Below are positions 8,684 through 26,350 of a stretch of 64,000 nucleotides of DNA, piece after piece. The position numbers and the translations under genes were made by a program. Position 1 is the first letter of the stretch. Each line of letters opens with the position of its first letter. This DNA is from Mesorhizobium australicum WSM2073 (GTDB lineage Bacteria; Pseudomonadota; Alphaproteobacteria; Rhizobiales; Rhizobiaceae): the NCBI RefSeq assembly GCF_000230995.2, contig NC_019973.1, positions 5,594,001 to 5,658,000 on the forward strand, in the 5' to 3' direction. The notes under the pieces were generated by a model that worked only from the letters and a program-made list of their open reading frames with translations, ran no database searches and was not told the DNA's origin.

Positions 8684-8702
8684 CGATCTCTCCGACCACA
8701 GC

Positions 8703-10397: not shown

Positions 10398-10460
10398 TTC
10401 CAGAACCCCACTCGATACTCGTCAGGTCAGGGAGCCGCCGTAGCCGGCGGCCCTTTTCGC

Positions 10461-13400
10461 TCACACCACGAAGTCGCTTGAAATCGCTCCATTGCCGATG
10501 CCGGTCAGCGTGAATTCCGCCGGATTGTACGAAACGACGGTATGACCCTGGCCATCATCGGCAAGCTTGAAGGCGTTCGCATCATAATTGCCGACCAGAT
10601 GCAGCGCGGCGCCGTGGGTGCCGTCCGAAACGGTCAGCGTTCCGCCGCTGCCATCCTGGTTTGCCTGATAGACGGCCGTCGTTCCCGCACCGAACAGGAT
10701 ATCGCCGAGGTCCAGCCTGTCATCATTGGTGATGCCCCCGATCCGTCCGCTGTAGTCGAAGGAATCGTCGAGTTGCAGCGTGCCGGCAGCGTCGTGTCCG
10801 AAGGTGACGTCCGTCGACGAGGCGCCGCCGAATTCCAGCTTCGACAAATTGCCGATGGTGGCATCGCCGTCGCCGGTAACCTGGCCGTGGATCACGATGT
10901 CGCCGCCATTGGCCCAGAGCATGCCTGAATTCGCCAGGCCGCCGGCGACCGTCAAGCCGCCCGAACCCGTTGCCTCGAGCGTTCCGGAGTTGGTGACGAT
11001 GCTGCCACCGGTATCGATGATCAGCGCGTGCGAGCCGGTTGCGATGATGGTGCCCTGGTTGTCGAGGCTGAGCATGCCGCCGCCCAGCTGGCCGGCGCCC
11101 GAGATCGTGTTGTCGACGTTGACCAGAGTGACGTCCGGCCCTGTGCCGGAAATCATGTTGGCGGCGCTGTCGGACAGCAGGATCTGCCCGCCCCCCTGCA
11201 AGGTCACGCCGTGCTGGATGACCTGCAGCAGCGTATCGCCGCCGGTCGAGTCGAGCGAGATGAGGCCGCTATTGTTGATAATGCCGCTGAGCGGCAGCAA
11301 CGCACCGTCGCCGATCGTCATGGTGCCTGAATTGTTGACCACCGGCGTCTGGTCGAACACGAAATTGCTGGCTGTGAGTGCGCCCGAATGCACGCCGTCC
11401 AGCGTGATCGACTGTCCGTCGCCGAGTGCGATCACCGCATTGCCGTTGGCATCGTCGGCGATATGCGTCTGGAGGTCGGCGAAGTCCGCCAATCCGTTAT
11501 AGCCGATGAGATCGATCTGGTCGGCCGCGGCATCGAAATTGTGCACCGTGTCGGCGCCGATCGGTTGCGAGAAGACGAAGAGATCGTTGCCGTGCGAGCC
11601 GGTCAGCACGTCGTCGCCGGACCAGGCAAAGATCGGCGAACCCGGTGCGTAGGCCTCGACATTATCGGCGATCGATGCGGTGCCCGTGGTGCCGTCGGCA
11701 TTGATCCAGGTCATCTCGACATCGAGCACGGCTGCCCCGGTGAAACTGGCCGGCGTGGTAACGGTCAGCCCGTGCAGGTCGTTGGTCTGGATCGTCCAGC
11801 TTCCGTCGGCGTTGTGGATCGCGCCGTCGATGGTCCAGCCCGAAGGCACATCCTTCACCGTGACGGTGATGAGCGCGCCCTCATGTGATGGGTCGGTGAG
11901 AGCAAGGTTGATAGGCTCGCCGGAGGTGCCGGCGGGGGCCGTGAACTTGGAGCTGCTCCCACCGCCAGCATTGGTCTTGAATGTCACGCTGTCCACAGCC
12001 GTACTGGAATTGTGTGCCGAGCTGTTGTCGGTGACGACCGCGCTTATTTGATGAACAGAGTTGCTGACTGGGAACGGAGGCGCGCCGTCGATAAATGTAT
12101 GGACGTAGTCTCCACTCACTGACCCAGCAGCCAGTTCCGCAGCGGTCATCGTATAGATGAGAACGGGCGCACCGCTAGCGTTGTCATACAATTGAACGCT
12201 CTGAATACCGCTGGCATCCGTCGCATGAACAGTGAAGGTCGACTCCTGTTGGCTCGACGAAAGCTGGTGGCTTATCGAGACGTTCGGCGGTGTAAGGTCG
12301 CTACCCGTAACGCTGATCGTCGCAGTAACGCTACTGGTATCCGCGCCTCCATTGGCCGTACCGTCTCCATCCACCAACGTGTAGGTCACCGTCTTGGCGA
12401 TGGTGGCGCTGGTCGCGTTGGCATAGAGGATATGATCGGCGAGGGCCTGCGCTGCCGCCTGCGTAGCAGCGGCGTTGAAGGTCACGACCAGATTCGACCC
12501 GTTCGTGCCGCCGGTGAAGGTACCAATGAGTGTGCCACCATAGCTCACACTGTTGCCGCTGACGGTGATCTGGCCAGCGCCGGGGGCTTGATTCTGGATG
12601 GTCAACTGGTCCGTGAGCGCGCCGTTTGCCGTGAACCCGACAGTGAGCGAGCCGCCGCCGAAGTTGATGGAGTCGATGTCCGTTACTGTTCCCGCAGGAG
12701 CGATGGCAGCGGCGGCAGATCCAGCTGTATAGTTCAAGGTCGTCGAGAATCCAGCTGAAGCGCCGTTCAGATCTACTACAGGTGCATCGTTGGTGCCGTG
12801 TATGGTGACGGTGATGACCTGCGAGGTGCCGTCAGCCGTCGCCACCGTGATGCTGTCGGTGTAGTCGGTGCCGCCCACGAACTCGTTATGGGCGCTGCCC
12901 ATGGCGTAGGTCCAGTGACCCGTAGCGTCGATCGAGAACGTGCCGTAGCCGTTGCTGCCGGCCACGTTGGTCTGCACGACAAAGGCGTTCGAGCTGTCGG
13001 GATCAGTGGCAACCAGGGTGCCGCCGGTCGACTGCGCCGCATTGGCCTCGGTCACTGCGCCGTTCGCCGTGCCGGTGATGACGGCCGCGTCGTTGGTGCC
13101 GTGGATGGTGATCGTCACCACCTGGGCGGTGCCGTCGGCGGTATGAGCGGTGAAGGTGTCGGTGGTCGTGTCGCCGACATTGAGCGCCTGGACCGTGGCG
13201 TTGCCGTTGTCGAGCGTATAGGTCCACTGGCCGTCGGCGCCGAGCTGATAGGTGCCGAGGCCGCCGGTGCTTGCCGTGCCGGCGGGAGCCGTCTGCCAGC
13301 TGTCGGTCGCATTGTCGACATCGGTGTCGTTGAGATCGCCGCTCGCCGTCGGCGTCCCGGGAATGGCGTTGGCCACGCCGCCGGCCTCGGTCACTGCGCC

Positions 13401-14249
13401 GTTCGCCGTGCCGGTGATGACGGCCGCGTCGTTGGTGCCGTGGATGGTGATCGTCACCACCTGGGCGGTGCCGTCGGCGGTATGAGCGGTGAAGGTGTCG
13501 GTGGTCGTGTCGCCGACATTGAGCGCCTGGACCGTGGCGTTGCCGTTGTCGAGCGTATAGGTCCAGACGCCACCCGTGGTCATCTGATACGTGCCGTAGC
13601 CATGGTCACTTGCATGTCCGGCCGCGACGGCCTGGAATGTATTGGGTGTGTTGTCGACGTCGGTGTCGGTGAGCGTGCCGCTCGCCGTCGGCGTCCCAGG
13701 AACTCCATTGCCGACGCCACCCGCCTCGATCACTGCGCCCGTAGAGACTCCGGAAATCACGGCCGCGTCGTTGGTTCCGGCGAACTGTACCGTGGCGGTT
13801 GCCCAACTGAGCGTTCCATTGCCGAGCCGAATTGAATAGATAAACGTGTCAGTCAGGTATTGCCCTGCATTCAAGTTTTGTAATTGCGTCTTGAAAGCCG
13901 CTGTTAAGGTAGCCGCGTCGTATCCAACGAGTCCGTCGGATGTGATCCAGATTTTCGCGCCGTTAGAACTTGTGTCGGAGCTGCCGATTTCGCTCCGCGC
14001 CGAGTCTTGTGTCAACAAATCAGCAGCGGAGTATCCACTCATCGCGCCTGTATTGTTGATCCCGTTGTCGACCGACCAAAGCGTCTTGGCGTTCCCGCCG
14101 AGATCGTTGGCCATCACATTCAGGAAGATGGGCTGAGAACTATCCTCATTAAGCCCGGTGGTGCTGCTGGTGAACAGGTCGTCCTTTGCCTGCGGTGTAT
14201 TGGAGAATGACGCCGTGGTGCCGCCGGCACCGGTGACCTGAGTAGCCAT
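10461..14249 (-). CDS. Large secreted VCBS-repeat/RTX adhesin, type I substrate
   Basis: A 1262-residue protein with no N-terminal signal peptide. The first half carries successive VCBS-type repeats (recurring GTNDAAVITG and TYTLDNGNATVQALNVGD). A calcium-binding RTX stretch follows (LTGSHGNDLFVF), then a beta-rich C-terminal region and the hydrophobic end DFVV, typical of type I signals. The Met at 14249 is chosen because it begins MATQVTGAGG; the open frame upstream has a different composition. Its product is probably exported by the ABC/HlyD pair encoded directly downstream and acts in surface attachment or biofilm. Two repeat units are identical at DNA level, which suggests recent copy-number change. 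Confidence 0.88.
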   Translation of the reverse strand: MATQVTGAGGTTASFSNTPQAKDDLFTSSTTGLNEDSSQPIFLNVMANDLGGNAKTLWSVDNGINNTGAMSGYSAADLLTQDSARSEIGSSDTSSNGAKIWITSDGLVGYDAATLTAAFKTQLQNLNAGQYLTDTFIYSIRLGNGTLSWATATVQFAGTNDAAVISGVSTGAVIEAGGVGNGVPGTPTASGTLTDTDVDNTPNTFQAVAAGHASDHGYGTYQMTTGGVWTYTLDNGNATVQALNVGDTTTDTFTAHTADGTAQVVTITIHGTNDAAVITGTANGAVTEAGGVANAIPGTPTASGDLNDTDVDNATDSWQTAPAGTASTGGLGTYQLGADGQWTYTLDNGNATVQALNVGDTTTDTFTAHTADGTAQVVTITIHGTNDAAVITGTANGAVTEANAAQSTGGTLVATDPDSSNAFVVQTNVAGSNGYGTFSIDATGHWTYAMGSAHNEFVGGTDYTDSITVATADGTSQVITVTIHGTNDAPVVDLNGASAGFSTTLNYTAGSAAAAIAPAGTVTDIDSINFGGGSLTVGFTANGALTDQLTIQNQAPGAGQITVSGNSVSYGGTLIGTFTGGTNGSNLVVTFNAAATQAAAQALADHILYANATSATIAKTVTYTLVDGDGTANGGADTSSVTATISVTGSDLTPPNVSISHQLSSSQQESTFTVHATDASGIQSVQLYDNASGAPVLIYTMTAAELAAGSVSGDYVHTFIDGAPPFPVSNSVHQISAVVTDNSSAHNSSTAVDSVTFKTNAGGGSSSKFTAPAGTSGEPINLALTDPSHEGALITVTVKDVPSGWTIDGAIHNADGSWTIQTNDLHGLTVTTPASFTGAAVLDVEMTWINADGTTGTASIADNVEAYAPGSPIFAWSGDDVLTGSHGNDLFVFSQPIGADTVHNFDAAADQIDLIGYNGLADFADLQTHIADDANGNAVIALGDGQSITLDGVHSGALTASNFVFDQTPVVNNSGTMTIGDGALLPLSGIINNSGLISLDSTGGDTLLQVIQHGVTLQGGGQILLSDSAANMISGTGPDVTLVNVDNTISGAGQLGGGMLSLDNQGTIIATGSHALIIDTGGSIVTNSGTLEATGSGGLTVAGGLANSGMLWANGGDIVIHGQVTGDGDATIGNLSKLEFGGASSTDVTFGHDAAGTLQLDDSFDYSGRIGGITNDDRLDLGDILFGAGTTAVYQANQDGSGGTLTVSDGTHGAALHLVGNYDANAFKLADDGQGHTVVSYNPAEFTLTGIGNGAISSDFVV
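13045..13226 (-). repeat. 182-bp direct repeat, copy 1, in adhesin gene
   Basis: This stretch appears identical, base for base, to 13384-13565 (offset 339). It encodes a VCBS unit from TYTLDNGNATVQ through GTNDAAVITGTANGAVTEA. The offset is a multiple of three, so gain or loss of one unit keeps the frame. Confidence 0.9.
13384..13565 (-). repeat. 182-bp direct repeat, copy 2, in adhesin gene
   Basis: Second copy of the unit at 13045-13226. The 157 bases between the copies have diverged freely, so the identical part was probably homogenised by recombination. Confidence 0.9.
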
Positions 14250-15612
14250 TTTCAACCCCTGTTTCTGTAGCAGACGCCCCAACGCCTGTTTGTTAATAGT
14301 CCTGTACGACCACGCTCTGTCCGAGCATCGATCCCAAAGTCGCCACACAGCTGGGTTGAAAGCGAGTGCGGCGCATCATCAGCGAGCCTGCCGGACAAGC
14401 AGTGCCGGCTGGAGCTAGCGGATGATGATCGCATGATGGCGGCTGCGACGGCGTTGTCGCAGCGCTACGTCTCCCAACCCAATTGCATCGCCTAAATCGC
14501 CGGTTTCCGATCAAGAGATTTTAGACAATGCTTATATTAGGAGATTATTAACTCTACTGGGGAGGAAGCGTCAACGTCCAACTTGGGCGAACGGTTAATA
14601 TTCAACATGAAGGAGCTGCAGCCACCCGGATCGGCTTGTGAGATCGAACGAGCGCACGCCTAATATGAGCCAGCGCGGCAGAAGATGCGGGGCAGGGTAA
14701 CGAGAGCCCGCCAGCGCACTAACGCTGGACCTTGACCGCTGCCACGGGCGAGCCGGACATCCGGAAGCCTCACGCTCCAACGCAGATCACTCCAAGGATG
14801 ACAAGGCGCGAAGCAGATCTTGCCTTTGTGCACGCCGTTTTACGCCGTAGCCCCCTTCTTAAAGGTCTTTACCTCGTAAGGGACTTGGGCAGATCGGACT
14901 TGCCAGATTGGAGATGAAGATACCAGTTCAGCGAAAGTGAGATACGACACGAGAACAATTCTCGATGGCGAAAATCGCCGCCGAATCTACGCGATTGCCG
15001 CTCCTTCACTCCCACTCGATGATCAACCGGAATTTCAACACACTGATTTTGCTACCCAATTTTTTTCCGAAATTCTATAATACCGTCCCAAATACCGTCG
15101 GATTCTTACGCTGTTGAAAACGCTACAACAATGTAGTCGCTGTCGCAGCATGCATCCTTTTGACTGCATCATTTCCGGTAGCGCCTTCGCAGCGCCAAAC
15201 AGAAAGGCGCGTGGACGCCATTTCGGCGGATCCATCGGACCCGGTATGCAAACCGAGACTGGACAACGGCTGCTTGGTTTCGCATCCGTTTGGCCCACGG
15301 AGCACCGACGAATTTCCTACAATTCGACTGTATACGAGCTTTGGACTATTCGCAGCCTGTTGGCGAATGACCGCATTGGTGCCGCAAGCGGACGAGCCGG
15401 TCCTGGGACGAACTAGCCAGAAAGGCCATTCCGCTGGCACCCCATTGGCCGCAACGACATTGGTTGCGATCCCGCAGGTTGCAGTCATTTGAATCCGGCC
15501 GGCGGGGTAATGCCCAATTCGGTCTCCTTCGGCCCAAACCAGAAAAGCTGCTATCACCGCTGCTCTAGGGTCGCAGCAAACTTTAGATAAACCGCGCCAC
15601 GCAGAGCCCCCG
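14250..15612. other. Long gap without recognisable genes
   Basis: About 1.36 kb with only short frames of poor composition. The part near 14250-14600 should hold the promoter of the adhesin gene; an AT-rich stretch lies around 14517-14555. Around 15035-15120 the base composition drops in GC and contains short A/T runs. Opposed frames between 15123 and 15557 overlap each other and look like shadows. A guaA-end-like sequence at 15006 suggests that an island boundary passes through this gap. Confidence 0.5.
15006..15020 (-). other. guaA 3'-end-like sequence, candidate att site
   Basis: Read on the minus strand, these 15 bases are ATCGAGTGGGAGTGA, which encodes Ile-Glu-Trp-Glu-stop, the almost invariant end of GMP synthase. 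The upstream codons (KFRLI) do not match guaA and an in-frame stop lies 23 codons before, so this is not a guaA gene. A copy of the guaA end is what site-specific islands using guaA leave at one boundary. No integrase lies beside it. Confidence 0.4.
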
Positions 15613-15641
15613 TTGTCTGTTTTTCAGACATGTGCTAGATT
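15613..15641 (+). promoter_or_regulatory. Promoter with dyad operator in front of the 15.7-23.3 kb gene block
   Basis: A sigma70-like promoter can be read as TTGTCT at 15613, a 17-base spacer and TAGATT at 15636. A perfect dyad TGTCTG-TTTTT-CAGACA (15614-15630) overlaps the -35 box and spacer, where a repressor would block RNA polymerase. The XRE protein encoded as the second gene is the obvious candidate to bind it. Predicted transcription begins near 15648. Confidence 0.6.
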
Positions 15642-15674
15642 CGAGTCGGATAAATGGACATGCGAGGTATCATC

Positions 15675-15950
15675 ATGTTCCCTGCTCAAGCGTTTGAAGA
15701 CGCAATCCGAAATGAAATCAGTACGGCCATCAATGACCGTCCTGCTCCACGTGCGGCATGGGAGCCTGCGGTCGACTCGCTCGTGATGGTCCGGGTTGTT
15801 TTGCGCATCGAGGAAGAGTTCGCACTCGACCTTCCGGACGACGTAATGCCAGCTGGTGGCTTCCGTAGTGTCGAACACTGCGTCGTGACCGTCATGGAGA
15901 CATGTCGTGAAGCGTGGAGAGTGAGCCAGCCCGAAACCGAGGAGGTGTAA
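15675..15950 (+). CDS. Acyl-carrier-protein-like small protein
   Basis: A 91-residue protein. The segment VDSLVMVRVVLRIEEEFALDLPDD matches the acyl carrier pattern DSL(x)(x)(v)-helix-EEEF-(x)-IPD, including the Ser that takes 4'-phosphopantetheine. The later SVEHCVVTVMETC fits the last helix. The Met at 15675 has GAGGT upstream; a Met at 15654 in the same frame would leave almost no leader after the predicted promoter. It opens the gene block and ends two bases before the XRE gene. No acyl-transfer partner is seen nearby, so its role is unclear: it may be a structural or sensing relative of ACP. Confidence 0.6.
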   Translation: MFPAQAFEDAIRNEISTAINDRPAPRAAWEPAVDSLVMVRVVLRIEEEFALDLPDDVMPAGGFRSVEHCVVTVMETCREAWRVSQPETEEV

Positions 15951-15951
15951 T

Positions 15952-16326
15952 ATGGCACGGACCCCTGTTGGATTCGCAGGTCCAAACCCGGAGGCCGTTC
16001 GGCTCGGCAAGCGCCTCAAGGACGCGCGTGAATATGTGGGCATCACACAAGAAGAAGCGGCAAACCACCTGAAAGTCCGCCGCTCGGCAATTTCGGAAAT
16101 GGAGGCGGGCAAGAGGGGGGTCGGCGCCCTCGAAATGAAAAGCCTAGCCGTTCTGTACGAGCGGCCGACATCCTGGTTTACCGGCGAATCCGAGCAGCTG
16201 CACGTGCCCGAAGACGTCGCATTTCTGGCGCGCACAGTAAGCGATCTGTCAGAGAACGACAGGGGTGAGCTGGCAAGCTTTGCGGAATTCCTGCGCTCCC
16301 GTTCGAAGGTGAACAAGAATGGCTAG
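15952..16326 (+). CDS. XRE-family helix-turn-helix regulator
   Basis: A 124-residue protein with a Cro/C1-type domain at about residues 18-72 (LGKRLKDAREYVGITQEEAA, then RSAISEMEAGKRG). The C-terminal part LSENDRGELASFAEFLRSR is the helical tail seen in XRE partners of ImmA/IrrE peptidases. Its stop overlaps the start of the ImmA gene by eight bases. In known pairs the peptidase cleaves the repressor to release transcription. Its likely operator is the dyad at 15614-15630, which makes the whole block self-regulated. Confidence 0.88.
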   Translation: MARTPVGFAGPNPEAVRLGKRLKDAREYVGITQEEAANHLKVRRSAISEMEAGKRGVGALEMKSLAVLYERPTSWFTGESEQLHVPEDVAFLARTVSDLSENDRGELASFAEFLRSRSKVNKNG

Positions 16327-17344
16327 GGCGCCCACGCGCGACGCAGTCCTGAAAGGCATGCGGGCAGCGCTTCGCCTGCAGCGCGACCTCGGCCTGGATC
16401 AAGGCGCCGCGCGAGGGCATCGCGTGGACGTATTCGGTTCGATCTACCGACAGAACGTCCCCTTGCTTTTCCGGAAGCTTGAACCGCTCTTGGGGGCTTA
16501 TCTGCGCGAGGGCGGCAATCCAGGGATCATTCTGACGACGCGCCGTCCGCTTGGCCAACAGCGCTTCACTGCTGCGCACGAGCTTGGCCACCATGTGCTG
16601 AACCACGATCCCCATGCGGATGATGATAGTATTCTGCGCCGGTCGCCGGATCATGCTCGGGACTACATCAACCTTCCACCCGCCGAGCAAGAAGCCGATG
16701 CTTTCGCGTCATACTTCCTCGTGCCTGACTGGCTGATTACGGCACTCATGCAGCGTCACCATTGGACGCCGCAGCATCTTCAGAAGGCAGACGTCGTCTA
16801 CCAATTGGCTTTGCGCGTTGGCGCAAGCTATCGCGCGACACTCTACGCGCTAGTGCGCAACAGGGTTATTGGGGCCGGAATCCGGACGCAGCTTGTCAAA
16901 GCGCAACCAGCGACGATCAAGCGTGCACTCGTGCCCGACTATCCAATTGGGTCCACGCAAAACATCGATGTGTGGCACCTGACGGAGCGAGACGAGGGTA
17001 CGGTGATCGAAGCCGGCCGAGACGACTTGTTCGTGGTCAAGCTGCGCGAAGATAGCAACGCCGGTTACGTCTGGAATTTCGACGAACTGGAAATGGCCGG
17101 CTTCGCGATACTGAAAGATGGCCGCGAACAGGTCACCGAAGGGGTGGTTGGGGCTCCCGCGATCCGGCATGTGCTCGCGCGGGCTTCAGATGCGACCGTG
17201 CACGGAGTCTATACTTTGTGGGAGCGCCGGCAGTGGGCTCCGGACGACAATCCTAAACGATGGTCGTTCGATTACAGACCTGTCTATTCGCACGATGCAG
17301 GATTGTTTCGCCCCTCGTTCAGACACGCGGGCGTTGCGCGCTGA
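16319..17344 (+). CDS. ImmA/IrrE-family metallopeptidase with C-terminal chagasin-like domain
   Basis: A 341-residue protein. The zinc motif HELGH is at residues 87-91, with a downstream acidic ligand in PAEQEADAFASYFLVP, as in ImmA/IrrE regulators. Beyond about residue 210 there is a second domain with three blocks matching the loops of chagasin-type (I42) inhibitors of papain-like proteases: SNAGYVW (compare NPTTGYxW), GVVGAPAIR (compare GxxG) and LWERRQW (compare RPW). Its stop TGA shares its A with the ATG of a papain-family protease, so the two are translationally coupled. I infer that the second domain restrains that protease. Confidence 0.82.
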   Translation: MARAPTRDAVLKGMRAALRLQRDLGLDQGAARGHRVDVFGSIYRQNVPLLFRKLEPLLGAYLREGGNPGIILTTRRPLGQQRFTAAHELGHHVLNHDPHADDDSILRRSPDHARDYINLPPAEQEADAFASYFLVPDWLITALMQRHHWTPQHLQKADVVYQLALRVGASYRATLYALVRNRVIGAGIRTQLVKAQPATIKRALVPDYPIGSTQNIDVWHLTERDEGTVIEAGRDDLFVVKLREDSNAGYVWNFDELEMAGFAILKDGREQVTEGVVGAPAIRHVLARASDATVHGVYTLWERRQWAPDDNPKRWSFDYRPVYSHDAGLFRPSFRHAGVAR

Positions 17345-18015
17345 TGTTGAATGTCGTCGCCGATCTCAGAAACCAGCTTGAGCCGGCTCGCGATCAAGGT
17401 CGCCGCCCAACCTGCCTGTCTTTCGCGGCGAGCGCGACCCACCGAGCGGCGCATAAGCACCCGACCCAGTTGTCTCCTGAATGGCTTTATTACCACGCAA
17501 CGCGACGTGATGGGTTGCAGCCGGACCAAGGCTCGACGATTGAAGCGACGTGTACAGCGATCTTGAATGACGGCCAACCAGATGAGGAGTTCTGGCCTTA
17601 TCAAGATCGCGAAGTTTGCCTCAATCCCTATCAACCGGCCGGGCAACGCCCAGTCGTCGTCCGCTGTGATACCGGTCAACGAAGCAGCGATTCTGATCGC
17701 TGGCGCTCTGAGATCGACTCGGGGTCACCTGTCGTCATCACATTGTTCATTTCGTCCGCATTTTACCAGCCAGCACGGTTCATCGGACCGGAGGCGCTGA
17801 TGGCGGAAGATCATATTCCAATCGATCCTACACTGGCGCACGCGGTCGTCCTAGCCGGATACGGCTACGTTAACGGCGCATCGCATTTTCTGGTCCGCAA
17901 CTCCTGGGGACTGAGATGGGGATGGGCGGGCTACGCCTGGTTTTCCGAAACCTACCTCACCCGCCGCTTTGCTGGCGCCTTCGTCATCCAACATGGAGCA
18001 TCCGACGATGTATAA
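17344..18015 (+). CDS. Papain-family (C1A) cysteine protease
   Basis: A 223-residue protein with all catalytic elements of C1 peptidases: the oxyanion Gln at 18 and nucleophile Cys at 24 in DQGRRPTCLSFA, His166 in LAHAVVLAGYG, and Asn186 in VRNSWG, followed by WGWAGYAWF. It has no signal peptide or long propeptide, so it would be cytosolic and need another way of being restrained. The start at 17344 overlaps the stop of the ImmA/chagasin gene; the longer frame upstream is within that gene. Cytosolic bacterial C1 proteases are uncommon and often belong to conflict or effector systems. Confidence 0.85.
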   Translation: MLNVVADLRNQLEPARDQGRRPTCLSFAASATHRAAHKHPTQLSPEWLYYHATRRDGLQPDQGSTIEATCTAILNDGQPDEEFWPYQDREVCLNPYQPAGQRPVVVRCDTGQRSSDSDRWRSEIDSGSPVVITLFISSAFYQPARFIGPEALMAEDHIPIDPTLAHAVVLAGYGYVNGASHFLVRNSWGLRWGWAGYAWFSETYLTRRFAGAFVIQHGASDDV

Positions 18016-18784
18016 TCCTATGACGCCCGCACCCACCCCCGTCTCCGCATGGGTTAGGGCAGCCCGCCGGCTCAAGGCCGACGGTGATCAACACGGGCTT
18101 ATGCTCCATATCGAAAATCCGACCGGATTTTCGCCAGGAGAGGACGAGATTGTGTGTCAGGTCGACGCGTTTCTGCGCGATCATGACAGATGCTGCGTCA
18201 GCACGGTCGCCAATACGATCTTCCCTGCCGCCCTTGATAGAGGCGACGGCATCGACGCGCTGACGAAGCGTTACATGCAGGTCTACGAGCGCCGCATGCA
18301 TCGTCAGGGCGAGTGGGGTCGCTATTTTCAGCGTATGGTCGCCTGGCCGAACGGCGGCGGAAGGGGTGCGGGAACCGTCAATCAGCTTTCCGCGAATATC
18401 GAGACGCTGCGGGCGATGAGAAGCGGAGAAGCAAAGTTCTTCGGCAACGTGACAGAGATCGCCCTCTTCGATCCGGCTCGCGATCTGCGAAAGAAAATGA
18501 ACCGGCAATGCTTGAGCTTCATCGAGCTAAAGCCCGAGCGCCAGGGAAATATCTGGCGGCTCAGCATGATGGCCGTCTATCGCAACCACTATTACGTCCA
18601 GCGTACGCTTGGTAATCTCATTGGCCTCGGCCGCCTGCTGCAGTTCATCGCCAACGAAACGGGTTTTGAGATTGGGACGCTGACAATCCAGTCCACGCAT
18701 GCGTGTCTCGATCCAGACCTGCAACGCGGCGAGATTTTCGAGTTGATAACAGCTTGCGACGGTCCAACAGGCCTGGCGGCCTAG
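18008..18784 (+). CDS. Thymidylate-synthase-like protein
   Basis: A 258-residue protein whose C-terminal half follows thymidylate synthase: a possible nucleophile in NRQCLSFIEL (Cys168), then WRLSMMAVYRNHYYVQ, where TS has the strand-Arg-Ser-x-Asp segment, and the helix LGRLLQFIANETGFEIGTL ending in STHACLD, where TS has the conserved His. The N-terminal part GEWGRYFQRM and NQL also fit. TS and its relatives methylate or hydroxymethylate dUMP or dCMP; phage relatives make modified bases. The TS motif around Cys is altered (no PCH), so activity is uncertain. The start at 18008 has GGAG ten bases upstream and overlaps the protease gene by eight bases. Confidence 0.65.
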   Translation: MYNPMTPAPTPVSAWVRAARRLKADGDQHGLMLHIENPTGFSPGEDEIVCQVDAFLRDHDRCCVSTVANTIFPAALDRGDGIDALTKRYMQVYERRMHRQGEWGRYFQRMVAWPNGGGRGAGTVNQLSANIETLRAMRSGEAKFFGNVTEIALFDPARDLRKKMNRQCLSFIELKPERQGNIWRLSMMAVYRNHYYVQRTLGNLIGLGRLLQFIANETGFEIGTLTIQSTHACLDPDLQRGEIFELITACDGPTGLAA

Positions 18785-18876
18785 TCGAGCCGTAGCAGTA
18801 TGCAACATCGGGTTGGCGCTCGATAAATCTGCGCCCGTATACGAAATTTAGGGGCTGCAATCAAAGGAATGATTTT

Positions 18877-19146
18877 ATGAACGACGCAAAGCTCCCCGCC
18901 TTTGAGGATATCGGACAGATCGAGGTGGACTTTCTCGGCCAACGCATCGTTATCGGATGCATCGAGGGAGAACAAGAAAAGGCTCTTCGGCTTGCCAAAC
19001 GCTTTGAAATTGACGCTGGCGAAGTGACTAAAGCGGTCTCCGCGGAAATCGAGCCGATCCAGGCGATGCTGATGGCCGGCATCTTGGCATATGAGCAACT
19101 TGAGCAGGCGGAGGCGGGCTATAACAATGGCGCCGATCACAGCTAA
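18877..19146 (+). CDS. Small protein with ZapA-like N-terminus
   Basis: An 89-residue protein. Residues about 15-50 (VDFLGQRIVIGCIEGEQEKA then LAKRFE) resemble the beta-beta-alpha start of ZapA, the FtsZ-associated coiled-coil protein, and the rest is predicted helical. The similarity is short and could be convergent. It starts 92 bases after the TS-like gene and overlaps the next gene by 20 bases. A role is not known; a scaffold or adaptor in the system is possible. Confidence 0.6.
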   Translation: MNDAKLPAFEDIGQIEVDFLGQRIVIGCIEGEQEKALRLAKRFEIDAGEVTKAVSAEIEPIQAMLMAGILAYEQLEQAEAGYNNGADHS

Positions 19147-19663
19147 GAATCGAAAGGCGAGCCCGGAGAAGCCCCGCATTTCGATGCGGTCGCGACAGCG
19201 AGCACAGTATGAGCACGATCTGCACAATCACTTGGACATATTGTCGCTGTCGCGCGCGGATCGCCTGAAGCATTACGGCTTACATTTCGCGAAATACGCG
19301 GGACGGTTTGCCCGGGGTGATGCCGAAGTCAAAACCAGAAGCGAAACGCTCGTCGACGCGTTTCTCGTTGTGCTGAGCGCTGCAAATGCGCTGAACCAAC
19401 GATTGCCGGATGTAGGAACCGGGGGATTGGTCGGTGGTGCGACCTCCGACCTCGCCTTTACCGACCACGCCGGACGTTTTGCCGATGCATGCGAGAAGAT
19501 CGATCATCTCGAGGAATTCCGTGCGATCGCCCTTGCTGCAAACGCCGCGCTTTCAGAGTGGATCGTTCACAGCGCAAAAGCGGCTGATTTTGATCTCGAC
19601 GCTCTCGTGGACGATCGTCGACGACAGCTTGCGCGCAGGCAGGTTTACGCTCAGGAGACTTAA
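19127..19663 (+). CDS. Helical protein of unknown function, possibly MazG-like
   Basis: A 178-residue protein predicted to be almost fully alpha-helical. Its first 30 residues are strongly basic (AKNRKASPEKPR, RSRQRAQ). The middle part (HLDILSLSRADRLKHYGLHF and DAFLVVLSAANALNQRLPD) and later DHLEEFRAIALAANAALSEW resemble the helix pattern of all-alpha NTP pyrophosphatases, but I cannot place the metal-binding ExxE and ExxD with confidence. The start at 19127 is preceded by GGAGGCGGG. Its stop overlaps the next start as TAATG. Confidence 0.6.
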   Translation: MAPITAKNRKASPEKPRISMRSRQRAQYEHDLHNHLDILSLSRADRLKHYGLHFAKYAGRFARGDAEVKTRSETLVDAFLVVLSAANALNQRLPDVGTGGLVGGATSDLAFTDHAGRFADACEKIDHLEEFRAIALAANAALSEWIVHSAKAADFDLDALVDDRRRQLARRQVYAQET

Positions 19664-20328
19664 TGTTTCTATCGGGTAAGCTCATCGCTGAACATGGCGG
19701 CGGCTGGATCGCACCATTCGCCCCGCAGCGGGTCGATTGCGCAGCCTATACACTGCGGATCGGTGACGAAGCTTTCATCAGCCCGGAAGGTCGAGACACC
19801 CGCAAGCCGGGCCTGGTTCAACGCTTAGGGCACAAGGCGGCTATCGTAATACCGCCCGGGCAGTTCGCCTATTTGACCACGCGAGAGTTCGTAACGCTCC
19901 CGAATGACCTTCTCGGCTTCATCAACATGAAGAGTACGCTAAAAAACAGCGGTCTTGTGAATGTAAGCGGATTTCACGTCGATCCGGGCTACAAAGGAAA
20001 GCTTCTGTTCGCTGTCTTCAACGCAGGACCGCAGACAGTGACGGTGCGGTGCAATCAGGACGCATTCCTGATCTGGTTTGCGCGTCTCGAAGGCGCGACG
20101 GAACAATACGCCCGGCAAAAACCGGGATTTCGGGAGATCGACACGACTTTGATGGGATTACTCCCCGCCGAGACCGCATCGCTGAACTCCATCAACAAAA
20201 GGATGGATCAAATCGAGCGACGCATTTCCTACGCATTCGGTATAATGACACTTGCTGGCGGTGTTGCGGTTGCTGCGGTTGCCGGCGTCATTGCGAGCAT
20301 GGCTTTTAAAGCCTTAGGAGGACCGTGA
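19663..20328 (+). CDS. dCTP deaminase/dUTPase-like protein with C-terminal membrane helix
   Basis: A 221-residue protein. Residues about 1-165 follow the trimeric dCTP deaminase/dUTPase fold: LPNDLLGFINMKSTLKNSGL, then VSGFHVDPGYKGKLLFAVFN, corresponding to the KSS(L)ARxG and IDPGxxG motifs. Known members convert dCTP to dUTP or hydrolyse dUTP; bacterial dCTP deaminases are also antiphage effectors that empty the dCTP pool. Unusually, a short coiled segment (NSINKRMDQIERRI) and a membrane helix (about residues 190-215) follow, which would tether the enzyme to the inner membrane. The catalytic Glu cannot be placed for certain. Confidence 0.75.
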   Translation: MFLSGKLIAEHGGGWIAPFAPQRVDCAAYTLRIGDEAFISPEGRDTRKPGLVQRLGHKAAIVIPPGQFAYLTTREFVTLPNDLLGFINMKSTLKNSGLVNVSGFHVDPGYKGKLLFAVFNAGPQTVTVRCNQDAFLIWFARLEGATEQYARQKPGFREIDTTLMGLLPAETASLNSINKRMDQIERRISYAFGIMTLAGGVAVAAVAGVIASMAFKALGGP

Positions 20329-20745
20329 ATGGCAGACGCTTTCATTCTTAATGAACATTTCAACGGTGGCGACCGTGCTACAATCGAGACGATCCTGCAA
20401 GGGGCAGGTTTCAATCCACGATACGATGTTCCGAGTGACATGTCCTCAGTCGACCCGGACACTGACATCGGCGTCGTCGGGCTCCCAGCAGTCCCAGGAG
20501 ATCTCGGCACCATAGATGCGCGAACGATGGCGTTTGCCGGTGCTGGCATTCGGGTCGTGGCGATTTGGCTGCACACGGACCAGGAGGGCACAGGCGGTGT
20601 TCCCGCTTCGATCGGGAAATACGCTACCACAGTTGACCGCGATTCTGAAGTCTTGATGCCGACTCTAAAGGGCGAGACCGATGTCTGGGAACAACCAGGC
20701 GGGGAGAAAAGACCAAAGCCTCACACCAAACGCAACAAGTGTTGA
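20329..20745 (+). CDS. Small protein, possibly TIR-like fold
   Basis: A 138-residue protein. The pattern AFILNEHF, a helix, DIGVVGLPA, AFAGAGIRVVAIWLH and GGVPASIGKYA alternates strands and helices as in TIR-like or deoxyribosyltransferase-like folds. I cannot confirm the catalytic Glu of NAD-cleaving TIR domains. The C-terminal tail is basic and ends RNKC. The ATG directly follows the stop of the Dcd-like gene, with AGGAGGA eight bases upstream. It is tightly embedded in the block, so it should take part in the same process. Confidence 0.55.
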   Translation: MADAFILNEHFNGGDRATIETILQGAGFNPRYDVPSDMSSVDPDTDIGVVGLPAVPGDLGTIDARTMAFAGAGIRVVAIWLHTDQEGTGGVPASIGKYATTVDRDSEVLMPTLKGETDVWEQPGGEKRPKPHTKRNKC

Positions 20746-20748
20746 GCC

Positions 20749-21339
20749 GTGAGCCGAATCTACTCCTACGTCGTCGAACATGACCTTGGCTTTGCACCGA
20801 ACCCGTTCTGGGGTGTATGTACGCTAGCAAACTGCAAACCGATAATCCGAAAATTCGCTAGCGCAGGCGACCTCATAATCGGAACAGGTTCGGCTGACCT
20901 GCGGGCTACCGGCTACCTCGTCTACTGGATGCGAATATCGGAAATCACCTCCTTCGATGGCTATTGGTCAGACCCGCGCTTCGCGCGCAAAAAGCCAAAC
21001 ATGAACGGCAGCATGATGCATCGCTACGGCGACAACATCTACCACACGGCGCACGACGGCACATTCCAGCAGATCGACTCTTTCCATAGTGAAGACGATG
21101 GTACTCTGAGTGTCAGAAATCGGAAACGCGATACCGGTAACACGGAAAAAGTCATGCTTGCGACCGACTTCGCATACTTCGGAAAATCGGCTCCGGTTAT
21201 CCCTGGACACCTGCGTTTTCTGATCAAAAAAGGGCCAAGCCACAAATGCCGTTTTCCCGACGGGCAGCGGGCCGCTATTGAGGGTTGGCTGAAGACGTTG
21301 CCCGAACGCGGGTATGTCGGTGAACCTGGACATTGGTGA
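20749..21339 (+). CDS. Nmad2-domain protein (nucleotide modification associated domain 2)
   Basis: A 196-residue protein that matches Nmad2 through its length: YSYVVEHDLGFAPNPFWGVC at the start, KFASAGDLIIGTGS, LVYWMRISEITSFDGYWSDP, then GDNIYH and QQIDSFHSEDDG. Nmad domains were defined from gene neighbourhoods of phage and bacterial systems that make modified DNA bases; they are thought to bind or process modified nucleotides. Translation starts at a GTG four bases after the previous stop. The neighbours (TS-like, MazG, Dcd-like, UDG-like) are exactly the enzyme types known from such neighbourhoods. Confidence 0.85.
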   Translation: MSRIYSYVVEHDLGFAPNPFWGVCTLANCKPIIRKFASAGDLIIGTGSADLRATGYLVYWMRISEITSFDGYWSDPRFARKKPNMNGSMMHRYGDNIYHTAHDGTFQQIDSFHSEDDGTLSVRNRKRDTGNTEKVMLATDFAYFGKSAPVIPGHLRFLIKKGPSHKCRFPDGQRAAIEGWLKTLPERGYVGEPGHW

Positions 21340-21409
21340 CGCTGAAGCGTTTGGCGCCTTCAGCGCAGCTGCAGTTCTCTGATCAACCGAGCGTTTTGCC
21401 CCGAATTAC

Positions 21410-21429
21410 CTGTTGCCGACGAGCAACAG
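21410..21429 (+). promoter_or_regulatory. Hairpin in front of the MazG gene
   Basis: CTGTTGC-CGACGA-GCAACAG forms a stem of seven base pairs with a six-base loop. It lies in the only longer gap (163 bases) of the last part of the block. No T-run follows, so it is not a clear terminator; it may be an operator or an mRNA processing site. Confidence 0.45.
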
Positions 21430-21502
21430 CGGGAGGAAGTTCAGCCGCTGCGATTCCTTATATCGTGATCATCTGGCAATCTGCCCTGGTGGGGGATTCG
21501 CG

Positions 21503-22651
21503 ATGGATGGATCGACTCTATCACTAAACGAATATCAAGATTTAGCGCTCAAGACGGATCGAACAGGCCTGAAATCCAGAAATTTGAGCCTGCCAATCCT
21601 TGGATTGTTTGGTGAAACCGGCAGTTTACTTAGCGAGGTGAAAAAGAAGCAGCGGGACTCCAAAGCCTACGACTCGTACGAAAGCGGTGTGATCGAGGAA
21701 TTCGGCGATGCGCTTTGGTACCTGGCGGTCATTGCAGCCCATGCAAATATCCGGCTAGCTGATATTGCAGAGGAATTCGAGTTCGGTCCTAACGAGGCGC
21801 TTCGCTTCGTGAATCTGCAACCGCAACAAACGCTTAACCTCGCAGCTCCCACGACGGAATTCGCACGAACGCTTCTGAAACTGGCCAATTCGGTAGGCAA
21901 TCTTACCAATAGCGACGGTGAAGCTCTGTCAGACTGCGACCCAATCGCTTTTGCACAAAAGCTAAAAATGATTTTCCGCAATTTGGTGCACGCGGCCAAC
22001 GAGGCAGGCGTGACCTTGGGGGACGCGGCGGTTCACAATCTGCGGAAGGCGCAGGATCGCTGGCCAACGGACCGCATTCCCCCTCCGCTGTTTGATCTGG
22101 AATTCCCCTCTGAGGAGCAGCTGCCTCGAAAACTCGCGATTGAGATTTTCGAGCGCAATTCTGGCCCCAAACAATACGTTTATCAGCGCTGCAACGGCGT
22201 CAATATCGGGGACCGCCTCACCGACAATAGTGTCGTGGAAGACTTCTATCGCTTTCACGACGCTTTTCACTATGCCTATGCAGCCATCCTTGGTTGGTCG
22301 CCGGTAACGCGGGCCCTATTGAAGCTCAAACGGAAGAGCAAGACCAAAGTCGATGACGGCGAGGACGGTGCCCGCGCGATTATTCTCGAAGAAGGTGTTG
22401 CGGCCTACGTTTTCGCGAGAGCCAAAGAACATCAGTTCTTCGAGGGACGCGATGAGGTTGATTTCAACCTGCTGAAGACGGTCAGGAGTTTCGTCCAGGG
22501 TTTTGAAGCGGAGCAGTGCCCGCTGTGGCTTTGGGAAGAAGCGATCCTGAAAGGAAACGCCGCCTATCGCTTTTTGCGACAGCATCGACGTGGGCGCCTC
22601 ATCCTTGATCTGGACAAACGTGATATGATGGTGGAAGAGCTTGCGCCATGA
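21503..22651 (+). CDS. MazG-like NTP pyrophosphatase with MazG C-terminal domain
   Basis: A 382-residue protein. The N-terminal domain has the MazG metal-binding pattern GETGSLLSEVKK (about residues 37-48) and EEFGDALWYL (65-74). After a second helical part, the C-terminal region (about 215-375; FYRFHDAFHYAYAAILGWSP, LEEGVAAYVFARA) matches the domain that accompanies MazG in base-modification and conflict neighbourhoods. MazG enzymes turn dNTPs into monophosphates. The start at 21503 has GGGGGA seven bases upstream; the longer frame lacks one. It overlaps the next gene by four bases (ATGA). Confidence 0.85.
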   Translation: MDGSTLSLNEYQDLALKTDRTGLKSRNLSLPILGLFGETGSLLSEVKKKQRDSKAYDSYESGVIEEFGDALWYLAVIAAHANIRLADIAEEFEFGPNEALRFVNLQPQQTLNLAAPTTEFARTLLKLANSVGNLTNSDGEALSDCDPIAFAQKLKMIFRNLVHAANEAGVTLGDAAVHNLRKAQDRWPTDRIPPPLFDLEFPSEEQLPRKLAIEIFERNSGPKQYVYQRCNGVNIGDRLTDNSVVEDFYRFHDAFHYAYAAILGWSPVTRALLKLKRKSKTKVDDGEDGARAIILEEGVAAYVFARAKEHQFFEGRDEVDFNLLKTVRSFVQGFEAEQCPLWLWEEAILKGNAAYRFLRQHRRGRLILDLDKRDMMVEELAP

Positions 22652-23316
22652 AACCAGCTGACTTTGTCGAAGAACTCGCGTCCTACCAGTTTGCCAACGC
22701 GTTCAATCCCTACGCCGATGCGTGCCCAGAATTTGACGCCGAAGATGCGCCAGGAGTCCGTCGGCGGAACCTGGAAGCCGTCTTAAGTGCAGCAATCGAG
22801 AGAGGAGTTGATTCCTTCTGGATTGCTCGAGATCTTGGCTATCGGGGCGGTCGCCGAACGGGCCTGGCATTAACTGACGAGGCGCATCTTGATTGGCACT
22901 CAGAACTTCTCGGTACTGAACCACTCATGAGAGCGACTAAAGGCCCCCCCGTGGCCGAGCGCACCGCCACCGTTGTATGGCAGATGCTGCGCTCAATCGA
23001 ACAACCGATCTTTCTCTGGAACGTCTTTCCGTTTCATCCGCATGGCCCCAATGAGCCGATGACAAATCGGTGTCATACCCGTAGCGAGCGATTGGCATGC
23101 AAACCCTTTTTGGAAGCGCTGATCGACACCTTGCAGCCGAAACATCTTGTTGCCATTGGACGCGATGCCCAAGCAGCTTTGGTGGACCTCGGCCTTGAGG
23201 CAACTGCGGTTCGTCACCCTAGCTATGGAGGGCAGAGCGAGTTTATAGGCCGCCTTGAGGAATTCTACTGCGTCCGCTCTAAGCCCGCCCGGGAAACCCA
23301 GCTACATCTGCTCTAA
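22648..23316 (+). CDS. Uracil-DNA-glycosylase-superfamily protein
   Basis: A 222-residue protein with motifs of the UDG superfamily: FWIARDLGYRGGRRTG near the active-site loop, LWNVFPFHPH, and the C-terminal VRHPSYGGQ (compare HPS in UDGs). UDGs remove uracil or damaged bases from DNA. With a Dcd-like and a TS-like enzyme in the same block it could act on uracil or a modified base, either to restrict invading DNA or to protect the host. It starts inside the last codons of the MazG gene and is the last gene of the block. Confidence 0.78.
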   Translation: MKPADFVEELASYQFANAFNPYADACPEFDAEDAPGVRRRNLEAVLSAAIERGVDSFWIARDLGYRGGRRTGLALTDEAHLDWHSELLGTEPLMRATKGPPVAERTATVVWQMLRSIEQPIFLWNVFPFHPHGPNEPMTNRCHTRSERLACKPFLEALIDTLQPKHLVAIGRDAQAALVDLGLEATAVRHPSYGGQSEFIGRLEEFYCVRSKPARETQLHLL

Positions 23317-23735
23317 CCGTTTCGTTCTCTCTACCGGCGTGCCGGGGCCGAAACAAAGTGCGTCGCCATGTGGGTGTAGAACACGCCTGGCGCAGGGCTG
23401 GACTTTCAGAGTAGAGTTCACCTCGGAAGAACATTCGGAGCGTTGACCGCGGCAGTATTGACCTGATGACGTTGGTCTGCCTCGTCGATGCTGGGGAGGC
23501 GAATTCTCGACGCGTGGCTCGCGTGAGGCTGTCTAATTGAGGCCTCAGTTCCGCGTTTTTCCCCGAGCCGGCCGAAGGGAAACAGAGGACGTCTGCAGTC
23601 TGCATCGTTCCGGGAGTTCGCATCGAAGGCGGGGACAATCGTTTCGTTGCCACTTCCTACTGCACGAAGCCGACCACGTGCCGGCGCAGGAAGCCAGACC
23701 TGCCCGCCGAAAGGCTGGTACATCTACCGCGGGTA
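23317..23735. other. Gap without recognisable genes
   Basis: The 419 bases after the UDG-like gene hold only overlapping frames of poor composition on both strands. No terminator with a T-run and no inverted repeat of a mobile element was seen. It probably marks the right edge of the block. Confidence 0.45.
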
Positions 23736-23942
23736 TTACCAGCGGATCACGACGACTTTTTCAGTCCCGTTGGCGAGTTCGACAGCCTCGGTGCCATCTT
23801 GCTTGCGGCTCTGGATTTTGGCGCTCTCAACGGCTTCAACATTGGCGGCATTGGCCGCAAAAGCCTCATCGATCTCGGCGACACAGACCAAAGTCTCAGG
23901 CGGTAGGTCCTTTATTTGGTCCAGCAACTCGCGAACATTCAT
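23736..23942 (-). CDS. Conserved small rhizobial-type protein of unknown function
   Basis: A 68-residue acidic protein that starts MNVRELLDQIKDLPPETLVC and ends EKVVVIRW. The ATG at 23942 is preceded by AAGGAG at eleven bases, whereas the longer open frame has no such site. I recall similar short proteins from rhizobia but no function. No domain, signal peptide or membrane segment is visible. Confidence 0.6.
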   Translation of the reverse strand: MNVRELLDQIKDLPPETLVCVAEIDEAFAANAANVEAVESAKIQSRKQDGTEAVELANGTEKVVVIRW

Positions 23943-24505
23943 GGCGAATCTCCTTGGCACATGCGGGGAGCAGATACGTGCTTCGCAGATGCGAAACCAT
24001 GGTTCTTGAGAAAAGTTCCGTTCACCTGGGCACCGATCAAATTTGCGGCGCGAGAGCATCGGCGTCAGGGAAGTTTGCTCCTTAACGCGCCGCCATCCCG
24101 CTGGGCGCTTTGTGCTCGGACCGGGGGAGCCTTTCCCCTCACCCGGCCCGTTCGCGCGCAGTCACGTCCTTGCCTGAACCGACGGAGCGCTCCTAGGCCG
24201 CATCGAAGGATTCTCCGCCCCAAGCGCACGGGGTCCGCTTGTTTTGCAGTTGCAGCGGCACGGGATCTTGCGCAGTGGTTTTCCAGGAATCAGCCTTGTG
24301 GAATCCGATTCAAACCCGGACCATTGAGGTCATTCAGCTCGCCGCCGGCCGATGATCCGCGCCGAAATACCGCTCATTCGTCTCACCACAACCTCACCGA
24401 ACAGGCGTTCGCTGACGCGGCGGTACTGATGATTTGGGCGGTGATGCCACCTTTGCCGAGCGGTCGTCGCAACAAGTCCACGAGCTCCAGAGCTGCTGGT
24501 TGCTT
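23943..24505. other. Gap without recognisable genes
   Basis: About 560 bases between the small minus-strand gene and the 3' end of the hydroxylase gene. Frames here are short and of uneven composition. A partly self-complementary stretch (GGGGGAGCCTTTCCCC, near 24122) is present, but it is not followed by a T-run. Confidence 0.4.
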
Positions 24506-25693
24506 TCAGCGTTTGAGCATGGCCGAAATGCCGTGCCGGATAAGAGGAAAATGTTGGGCGAACCTAAGAGCCGCATGGCGTGCAAGCCGTGCCGTCAGTC
24601 GCTCGCTTGAGTAGAGTCGGACGAGCATATTCGTACCATGGTAGAGCGGCGCCGCGGACAGGCGAAGCCGCCTTTCGTATCCGTGCAGCATGTCGGGATC
24701 GGCAATGTCACGGCCGTCCCGACTTGCAGTCAGGATTGCATCGGCGAGTTGCTTTTGGCTGCTGAGGCCGATGTTGAAGCCATGCGCCGTCACGGGGTGC
24801 ATTCCGATAGCAGCGTCACCGATGAGTGCGGCGCTCGGAGCCCTGAATTCGTGCGCCCAAGTGGTGACCAGTGGATAGGTGTGGCGGTTGCTTGCCAATG
24901 TCATTTCACCGAGACGGCCTCGACACCGCTTCGTCAATTCCCTGACGAACAATTCGTCGCTGAAGGCAAGCAGTCTGTCGACGTCGCTTGAGGGCAGAGT
25001 GAGCAGCAGCGAGGACACCCCCTCCCCCAGAGGCAACATCGCTATCGTTTGATGATGATCGAACCATTCGGTTGCCACATGGTGATGGTCGCGCTCGTGC
25101 CGCACCCGACAGATCAGCATCGAGTGGCCAAGCCGGTTGATGTCGGCGCCGATGCCGAGCAGATCACGCGTGGGGGACAGGCGCGAGTCCGCGGCAACAA
25201 CAAGCCTGGCGCTCAACTGCATGCCGTCGGAAAGCCTTACCACGGCTCCTTTGTGGCTGGTCGTTGCATCGATGACCGAGTGGCCGCACAGGAGCTCTGG
25301 CTGATCACGCATCCGAACGATTTTGAACAGCGCATCGCGAATGCGGCAGTTCGGGACCAAAATTCCGAGTGGTTCTCCACACGCCCTTGGAGCATCAACA
25401 CGCAGTGCGAAACCGCTCGAACCGTTAAGCACGCGCGCGCCTCGAAGTGGTGATTTGTCCGAAGCGGGAATGATATCCCAGGCGCCGAGCTCCCGAAGGA
25501 TTCTGATCGAGGCATGAGTCAGCGCGATCTCGCGACCGTCGAAAGCCGGATTGGCCAGTCTTTCCAGGGCCTGCGCTTCAACAAGCGCCACCTTGAGTTT
25601 GCTCTGGGCAAGCGACGCGGCGAAGGAAAGTCCGACCGGCCCCGCTCCAACGACAATGATGTCGAAGCTGTAATCGGACTCGGCCATCAACAT
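24506..25693 (-). CDS. ubiM: UbiH/UbiF/COQ6-family FAD monooxygenase, UbiM-like
   Basis: A 395-residue flavoprotein with the FAD-binding motif VVGAGPVGLSFA near the N-terminus, a middle segment of the UbiH family and the late motif ALIGDAAIGMHPVTAHGFNIGL, which fixes the ubiquinone-hydroxylase family. These enzymes hydroxylate the ubiquinone ring. The name UbiM is a family-level guess from the pattern of proteobacterial single hydroxylases; UbiF or UbiH remain possible. It lies downstream of the cbb3 cluster, so a role in making quinone for that respiratory chain is likely. An in-frame Met at 25687 is an alternative start. Confidence 0.7.
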   Translation of the reverse strand: MLMAESDYSFDIIVVGAGPVGLSFAASLAQSKLKVALVEAQALERLANPAFDGREIALTHASIRILRELGAWDIIPASDKSPLRGARVLNGSSGFALRVDAPRACGEPLGILVPNCRIRDALFKIVRMRDQPELLCGHSVIDATTSHKGAVVRLSDGMQLSARLVVAADSRLSPTRDLLGIGADINRLGHSMLICRVRHERDHHHVATEWFDHHQTIAMLPLGEGVSSLLLTLPSSDVDRLLAFSDELFVRELTKRCRGRLGEMTLASNRHTYPLVTTWAHEFRAPSAALIGDAAIGMHPVTAHGFNIGLSSQKQLADAILTASRDGRDIADPDMLHGYERRLRLSAAPLYHGTNMLVRLYSSERLTARLARHAALRFAQHFPLIRHGISAMLKR

Positions 25694-25740
25694 GGCGCCA
25701 TCGCGTAGGCTCTCCAGTGCCCAAGCACGAACTGCGAAAT

Positions 25741-25756
25741 CAAAGACGCCTTTGAT
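25741..25756 (-). promoter_or_regulatory. Dyad in front of the ubiquinone hydroxylase gene
   Basis: TCAAAG-ACGC-CTTTGA is a perfect six-base dyad 48-63 bases before the start at 25693. It is not an FNR box (TTGAT-N4-ATCAA). It could be an operator for an unknown regulator. Confidence 0.35.
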
Positions 25757-25816
25757 GCTAGTTTAAGCACGACGCGCGCGAGCTATGGCCGCCTAAATAG
25801 GTGGCAAGCCGCCTCA

Positions 25817-26104
25817 TCAGCGGCAGATGCTCACAAAGCCGTTGCTTGACGGCTGAAGCTGGCAAATAAGCATACGATCGCGCCGTTGCAGCGGCGCGAT
25901 CTCGCGATCCTGGGCACGGAAGTGCTGCTGCTGCTGAAATTGCTGCCGCCTCAGCCTGTTCTCCAGCATCAGTGATTCGTTCTGCTCGACCAGCGCATTG
26001 CGATTGGCGGGGTTAAGGACTGGTGCCGAGGCGACTGGACCCGGCAACGCCGCCGTTCCCAGCATTCCCGACATAAAGATTGTCAATAGGCGAAATCGCG
26101 ACAT
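25817..26104 (-). CDS. Small secreted protein of unknown function
   Basis: A 95-residue protein with an N-terminal signal peptide (about residues 1-26, hydrophobic core LLTIFMSGMLGTAALPG, cleavage after VASA). The mature part is rich in Gln and Arg, is predicted helical (RRQQFQQQQHF) and has a Cys pair near the end (ICQLQPSSNGFVSICR) that could form a disulfide. CAGGAG precedes the ATG at 26104. It may belong to a transcript that begins at the FNR-type box at 26351. Confidence 0.6.
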   Translation of the reverse strand: MSRFRLLTIFMSGMLGTAALPGPVASAPVLNPANRNALVEQNESLMLENRLRRQQFQQQQHFRAQDREIAPLQRRDRMLICQLQPSSNGFVSICR

Positions 26105-26148
26105 CCATTCACTCCTGCAAACAAAACGTTGGCATACGCATGCCATGT

Positions 26149-26298: not shown

Positions 26299-26350
26299 GG
26301 TTTCTCCTTGAAAGACTGACCCATGAAACCACACCGATGAGTAGATAACC

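Follow-up and report, generated by a model that had tools for sequence, protein, structure and literature searches.

In the genome of Mesorhizobium australicum WSM2073 (6,200,534 bases, single contig), a block of twelve closely packed genes combines regulatory and proteolytic proteins with enzymes acting on nucleotides and DNA bases, raising the question whether these genes form one system and what that system would do. The block lies in a stretch of 64,000 nucleotides (contig NC_019973.1, positions 5,594,001 to 5,658,000), hereafter the window, and positions refer to this stretch. All twelve plus-strand open reading frames (ORFs) claimed in a preliminary description were found between 15654 and 23316. 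Seven of them constitute a recurring core: an acyl-carrier-protein-like gene (ACP), an XRE repressor, an ImmA-type metalloprotease, a papain-family (C1) protease, a divergent thymidylate-synthase-fold (TS-like) enzyme, MazG/MazG_C and a uracil-DNA glycosylase-like (UDG-like) protein. Based on sequence comparison, it is strongly supported that these seven form one system. The block as such is read here, with a probability of roughly 0.5, as a mobile, conserved conflict system with a protease switch and base-modifying enzymes.

The core was defined over 86 loci (the window, 5 plasmid and 80 genome loci), picked by the TS-like gene alone and scored with profiles made from the window genes. TS and XRE were detected in all 86 (the XRE counts take in unrelated XRE genes at a few loci), ACP, ImmA and C1 in 85 each, MazG_C in 83 and UDG in 80. 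With each core gene present in 80–86 of these TS-picked loci, the proposal that the protease and nucleotide parts belong to one system holds, and the two parts are found together rather than always separate, the case that had been named as its refutation. The other five genes are accessory, with the DCD-fold gene in 14 of the 86 loci, the helical gene in 4 and the ZapA-like, TIR-like and Nmad2 genes in 3 each; these counts rule out a twelve-gene unit. Among the genes for which conserved co-occurrence had been predicted, MazG_C, TS and C1 recur as core genes, and Nmad2 and the DCD-fold gene stand in few loci. The rarity of five of the twelve genes (3–14 loci) would also fit a chance neighbourhood of unrelated genes. 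Since the same core stands in loci from many genera, this explanation retains virtually no probability, and the core gene counts contradict chance clustering.

The genome loci come from a collection (84,980 species per its description) scanned with a TS alignment; the best 80 of 181 relatives were kept, so the kinase-type loci described below are under-sampled. The usual layout in relatives is two convergent units, with MazG_C and UDG forming the separate one. Of 72,556 plasmid records searched by tblastn with the TS-like protein, 22 matched. The ten plasmid neighbourhoods opened (Sulfitobacter, Acuticoccus, Tardibacter, Sphingomonas, two Rhizobium, Burkholderia, Sinorhizobium and two Bradyrhizobium) carry ACP, XRE, ImmA, C1 and TS-like genes followed by UDG and MazG_C on the opposite strand, except L012, which is without MazG_C; the UDG gene of L011 bears the annotation 'hypothetical'. 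Overall, the hosts include alpha- and betaproteobacteria of many genera and an archaeon, and the loci lie on plasmids and chromosomes. In L149 the TS gene is split into two pieces, and a Phycisphaerae bin (L056) has the core with a 5-hydroxymethyl-dU (5-hmdU) DNA kinase instead of UDG. The full five-gene insert is found only in the window, L013 and L014, where MazG_C and UDG are both encoded on the plus strand.

Table 1 Features of the block, in window positions
Feature	Position	Strand	Class or basis
Variable insert enclosing the system	approx. 15393..23395		L137 flanks enclose a different 9.6 kb
Gene 1, acyl-carrier-protein-like (ACP)	15654..15950	+	core
Gene 2, XRE-type repressor, CapH-like	15952..16326	+	core
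Gene 3, ImmA/IrrE (M78) metalloprotease with C-terminal chagasin domain	16319..17344	+	core
Gene 4, papain-family (C1) cysteine protease	17344..18015	+	core
Gene 5, divergent thymidylate-synthase-fold enzyme (TS-like)	18008..18784	+	core
ZapA-like	18877..19146	+	accessory
Helical protein	19127..19663	+	accessory
DCD/dUTPase-fold protein, hydrophobic C-terminus	19663..20328	+	accessory
TIR-like (ThsB-like, weak)	20329..20745	+	accessory
Nmad2	20749..21339	+	accessory
Core gene 6, MazG + MazG_C	21503..22651 (ATG start; TTG at 21413 possible)	+	core
Core gene 7 (gene 12 of the block), UDG-like glycosylase	22648..23316	+	core

The motif-level family assignments made earlier were borne out by profile matches, several of them below family cut-offs. 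Gene 1 matches PF00550 at 2.3e-3, below the cut-off, while its family profile picks up ACPs in the PDB at 2.8e-5 and the Asp-Ser of the attachment site is invariant throughout the family. Gene 2 matches HTH_31 (3.6e-9) and, by PADLOC, CapH (1.3e-10). In gene 3, residues about 11–214 match Peptidase_M78 (3.2e-13) and residues about 213–322 form a chagasin domain (Inhibitor_I42 1.2e-3, 19.6 bits for a cut-off of 27.2), this C-terminal domain matching both the chagasin fold and the family profile. Chagasin is an inhibitor fold for C1 proteases, and the next gene encodes one: gene 4 matches Peptidase_C1 (1.7e-13) and has the papain catalytic set Gln, Cys, His and Asn, invariant in 31 relatives. 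When 106 ImmA proteins were scored, the C1 gene and a chagasin-bearing ImmA were both present in 97 loci and both lacking for 7 intact proteins. The two exceptional rows are L037, a fragment of a broken ImmA gene, and L030, scored as chagasin without C1; a C1 gene was found at L030 in the 86-locus profile count and was probably missed here because its stop-to-stop ORF begins far upstream. By this comparison, the C1 protease pairs with a putative inhibitor domain fused to the ImmA metalloprotease.

So tight a pairing, together with the many plasmid loci, is what would be expected of a plasmid-addiction module in which the C1 protease acts as toxin and is countered by the chagasin domain as antitoxin, with the nucleotide genes secondary. 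However, C1 and chagasin are jointly missing in 7 loci that retain ACP or XRE, ImmA and TS, which indicates that the nucleotide part stands without them and makes a toxin-antitoxin role quite improbable. The XRE repressor adjoining an M78 metalloprotease of CapP fold is a CapH/CapP-type arrangement, and by analogy the regulatory half resembles this DNA-damage switch of immune operons. According to PMC10904395 and PMC13373217, single-stranded DNA activates PprI and CapP, CapH and CapP govern immune operons, and PprI/IrrE governs the DNA-damage response.

In the nucleotide half, gene 5 matches the thymidylate synthase family TIGR03283 at 1.3e-8, below its cut-off, and profiles of the TS and UDG families had no match in a PDB sequence search at 1e-3. 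Core gene 6 matches MazG_C (1.4e-82) and MazG (1.1e-3), and core gene 7 matches UDG (3.6e-9), with the motifs DLGYRGGRRTG and HPSYGGQ invariant in 33 relatives. The earlier reading of this half has to be amended: TS-like, MazG and UDG belong to the core, the Dcd-like protein and Nmad2 are accessory, and the Dcd-like protein has Ala in place of the deaminase Glu. Among 107 TS loci, 88 have the UDG-like glycosylase and 14 the 5-hmdU DNA kinase, never both; five have neither (L080, L087 and the short loci L129, L130 and L135), and L099 was found solely by the kinase search. The kinase is absent from the window and from the 88 UDG loci. Compared in this way, glycosylase and kinase are interchangeable partners of the TS-like enzyme, and their exchange suggests that a modified pyrimidine occurs in DNA.

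This exchange bears on two further explanations. A damage-induced repair or nucleotide-sanitation operon (MazG, dUTPase-like, UDG) under IrrE-type control and with no conflict role would account for the presence of house-cleaning families throughout and for the known part of PprI/IrrE in the damage response, but it is improbable, given that the 5-hmdU kinase replaces UDG in 14 of the 107 loci and that the distribution is patchy and mobile. We also know of no repair role for a papain protease with its inhibitor. Alternatively, the element might modify its own DNA to evade host restriction, like hypermodified phages, the glycosylase or kinase processing the mark. A TS-like enzyme with a 5-hmdU kinase is the gene set of phage thymine hypermodification, and carriage on conjugative plasmids, predicted for 14 of the 22 records, also fits self-marking. 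It is nevertheless unlikely: a base-removing glycosylase fits badly yet is the commoner type, and a mark needs neither a damage-type switch nor a locked protease.

Several side observations concern these enzymes. A small gene of about 65–69 residues lies just 5' of MazG_C in its unit (L009:10840-11049, L010:17629-17826), with profile matches in 44 of 114 loci. A protein of ~720 residues, with an N-terminal metallophosphoesterase and a second TS-like domain at its C-terminus, adjoins the core in 14 of 114 loci (L146:12912-15086, L147:12801-14984, L014, L017, L018, L019, L054, L067, L081, L083, L085, L086, L089 and L149). In a Phycisphaerales bin (L057:1-2300), TS-like, DCD-fold, thymidylate-kinase-like and 5-hmdU kinase genes are found without ACP, ImmA and C1, on a contig that begins just before TS. 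In plasmids from a cyanobacterium, a rhizobium, Parabacteroides and a haloarchaeon (L100, L104, L105, L107), genes for a TIR-domain protein and a 5-hmdU DNA kinase lie close to each other; this pair is perhaps another, smaller conflict cassette.

Mobility is indicated by the scattered distribution and by relatives that bear the flanks without the block. Of 99 genomes of the genus, 8, the host's own included, have TS-like genes (1e-20 or better). Across 14980-28781 the window shares 99.9% identity with Mesorhizobium ciceri bv. biserrulae WSM1271 (L013). Five block-free relatives were compared. In L137, a different 9.6 kb lies between flanks matching 15006-15392 (87%) and 23396-26140 (86%); in L141, 97 bp of the left flank is matched, with about 2.9 kb; in the remaining three, only the right flank was matched. 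Beside the variable site of L137 (4336-4764), a stretch resembles, by eye, the N-terminal piece of a phage-type integrase, which hints at an old integration site. No match was found in 50,697 phage records, nor in viral contigs with a single-sequence query; with an alignment query, one of 24 pattern matches in viral contigs is a relative (L155). This contig of the viral collection carries, at 4363-9951, a C1-less, kinase-type version with tmk, MazG_C, ACP, XRE, ImmA, TS and kinase genes.

A role in defence is suggested by this mobility, by the type of control and by the neighbours, those named for the relatives including Shedu, a caspase-family protein, CHAT, an ABC-three-component system, SIR2 and a restriction endonuclease. 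The course of events that we infer starts with the XRE protein, which would hold the genes silent until single-stranded DNA arises from infection or damage. The ImmA part, acting like CapP or PprI, would then cleave the repressor. The same event may also free the C1 protease of its chagasin lock, through self-cleavage or a conformational change. Next, the TS-like enzyme would convert dUMP (or dCMP) to a 5-substituted nucleotide, e.g., hydroxymethyl-dUMP, with MazG/MazG_C, and in the window the dUTPase-like protein, setting the nucleotide pool. The altered base could enter replicating DNA, where the glycosylase would excise it to leave abasic sites; in the sister systems the base would be phosphorylated rather than excised. 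A phosphopantetheinylated ACP may carry a small group for the modified base, which is the least certain step. The target might be the replication of phages or plasmids, or else the infected cell. Generalised, this becomes an immune switch across bacteria and archaea, in which a damage-sensing metalloprotease has a built-in papain inhibitor, a single signal lifts repression of the operon and unlocks the protease, and a TS-fold enzyme with an ACP-borne group makes an altered pyrimidine for incorporation into replicating DNA, to be excised or phosphorylated afterwards; in this full form the proposal is possible but doubtful.

A number of points weigh against reading the block as a conflict system. 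The chagasin score in the window is under the Pfam cut-off, and in its RPW loop RQW stands in place of RPW. For gene 5, Foldseek places ThyA, not MilA or AfhB, first by E-value, and in a weak alignment with ThyA the invariant Cys167 is two residues off the catalytic Cys. UDG, MazG and dUTPase are sanitation families as well. The single promoter proposed for the block could not be upheld: a sigma-70 scan gave 0 sites (3.2 expected in shuffles), gaps of 92 bp and 163 bp (73 bp with the TTG start) precede the ZapA gene and the MazG ATG, and MazG_C/UDG is a separate unit in most relatives. Divergence correlations in 32 non-redundant loci (0.76–0.92 among ACP, XRE, ImmA, C1 and TS, 0.75 for MazG_C-UDG and 0.58–0.73 between the two halves) are uncorrected for host history. 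The flank scan, run on 120 of 209 picked flanking proteins, had no controls, and many of the genes there are ordinary, including metabolic ones. Among the matches listed in that scan (the first 25 of 128 PADLOC families and the first 25 of 70 Pfam families, members unnamed) are GajA (9.5e-272), PtuA (2e-227), DruM, MTase_II, AriA and SoFic, as well as conjugation, resolvase and transposase families.

Compared with known systems, CapH/CapP (of CBASS and other immune operons) and PprI/DdrO resemble the regulatory half, but here the metalloprotease carries a C-terminal chagasin domain, and a C1 protease gene comes next. Family searches found no CD-NTase or Cap effector of CBASS among the twelve genes. 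Chagasin and amoebiasin inhibit papain proteases as separate proteins, whereas here the domain forms the C-terminal part of a metalloprotease protein. Gene 5 has about 15% identity to MilA CMP hydroxymethylase and AfhB dCMP hydroxylase. The dCTP-deaminase defences and AvcID likewise use pyrimidine nucleotide enzymes as effectors, while the DCD-fold protein here is accessory and without the deaminase Glu. According to the DefensePredictor study (PMC13092281), E. coli has defence systems with thymidylate synthase, dNMP (deoxynucleoside monophosphate) kinase, 5-hmdU kinase and NMAD domains; those with thymidylate synthase and 5-hmdU kinase domains are the nearest tested relatives in print, having a TS-like enzyme in common with the present loci and a 5-hmdU kinase in common with the sister loci. 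Its predicted systems also feature MazG_C, dUTPase, NMAD and UDG, in a legend that does not show which share a system. The parts of the study consulted name no ACP, chagasin or C1 protease, and neither 'acyl carrier protein' nor 'ImmA' occurs in its text. No known named system was recognised in the block by PADLOC or NCBIfam (each with 10 of the twelve proteins) or in the literature searched. No description of the seven-gene system was found in the literature searched, though older work may mention the gene order. It is therefore classed here as a candidate nucleotide-modification conflict system, with a protease-inhibitor module for which that literature gave no description.

As to the accessory genes, the ZapA-like protein matches ZapA at 6.3e-5, 0.2 bits under the cut-off, the TIR-like protein matches ThsB (7.5e-5) and Nmad2 (2.8e-66) is the sole copy in the genome. 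The helical protein matched no Pfam family; its gene is often beside the DCD-fold gene (e.g., L012, L103, L135). The DCD-fold protein (7.9e-18) has Ala at the deaminase Glu site, and Ala, Ser or Gly stands there in 21 of 21 system rows, while the genome's own DCDs have Glu. In dCTP deaminase this Glu is catalytic. It is unlikely that the Dcd-like protein acts as a deaminase, and dCTP deamination was rejected as its activity. Rfam gave no match across 14300-24700 at the gathering threshold. To the left of the block, the minus strand (8703-14348) encodes an ABC exporter-like protein and a 1295-residue cadherin-repeat protein, and the identity with WSM1271 ends near 14980.

If true, this reading would place a chagasin-locked papain protease in a prokaryotic conflict operon, with a logic like that of the caged proteases of eukaryotic immunity; to our knowledge there is no earlier case. 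The strict exchange of glycosylase and 5-hmdU kinase would also offer a handle on the roles of the orphan families MazG_C, Nmad, HMUDK and divergent TS.
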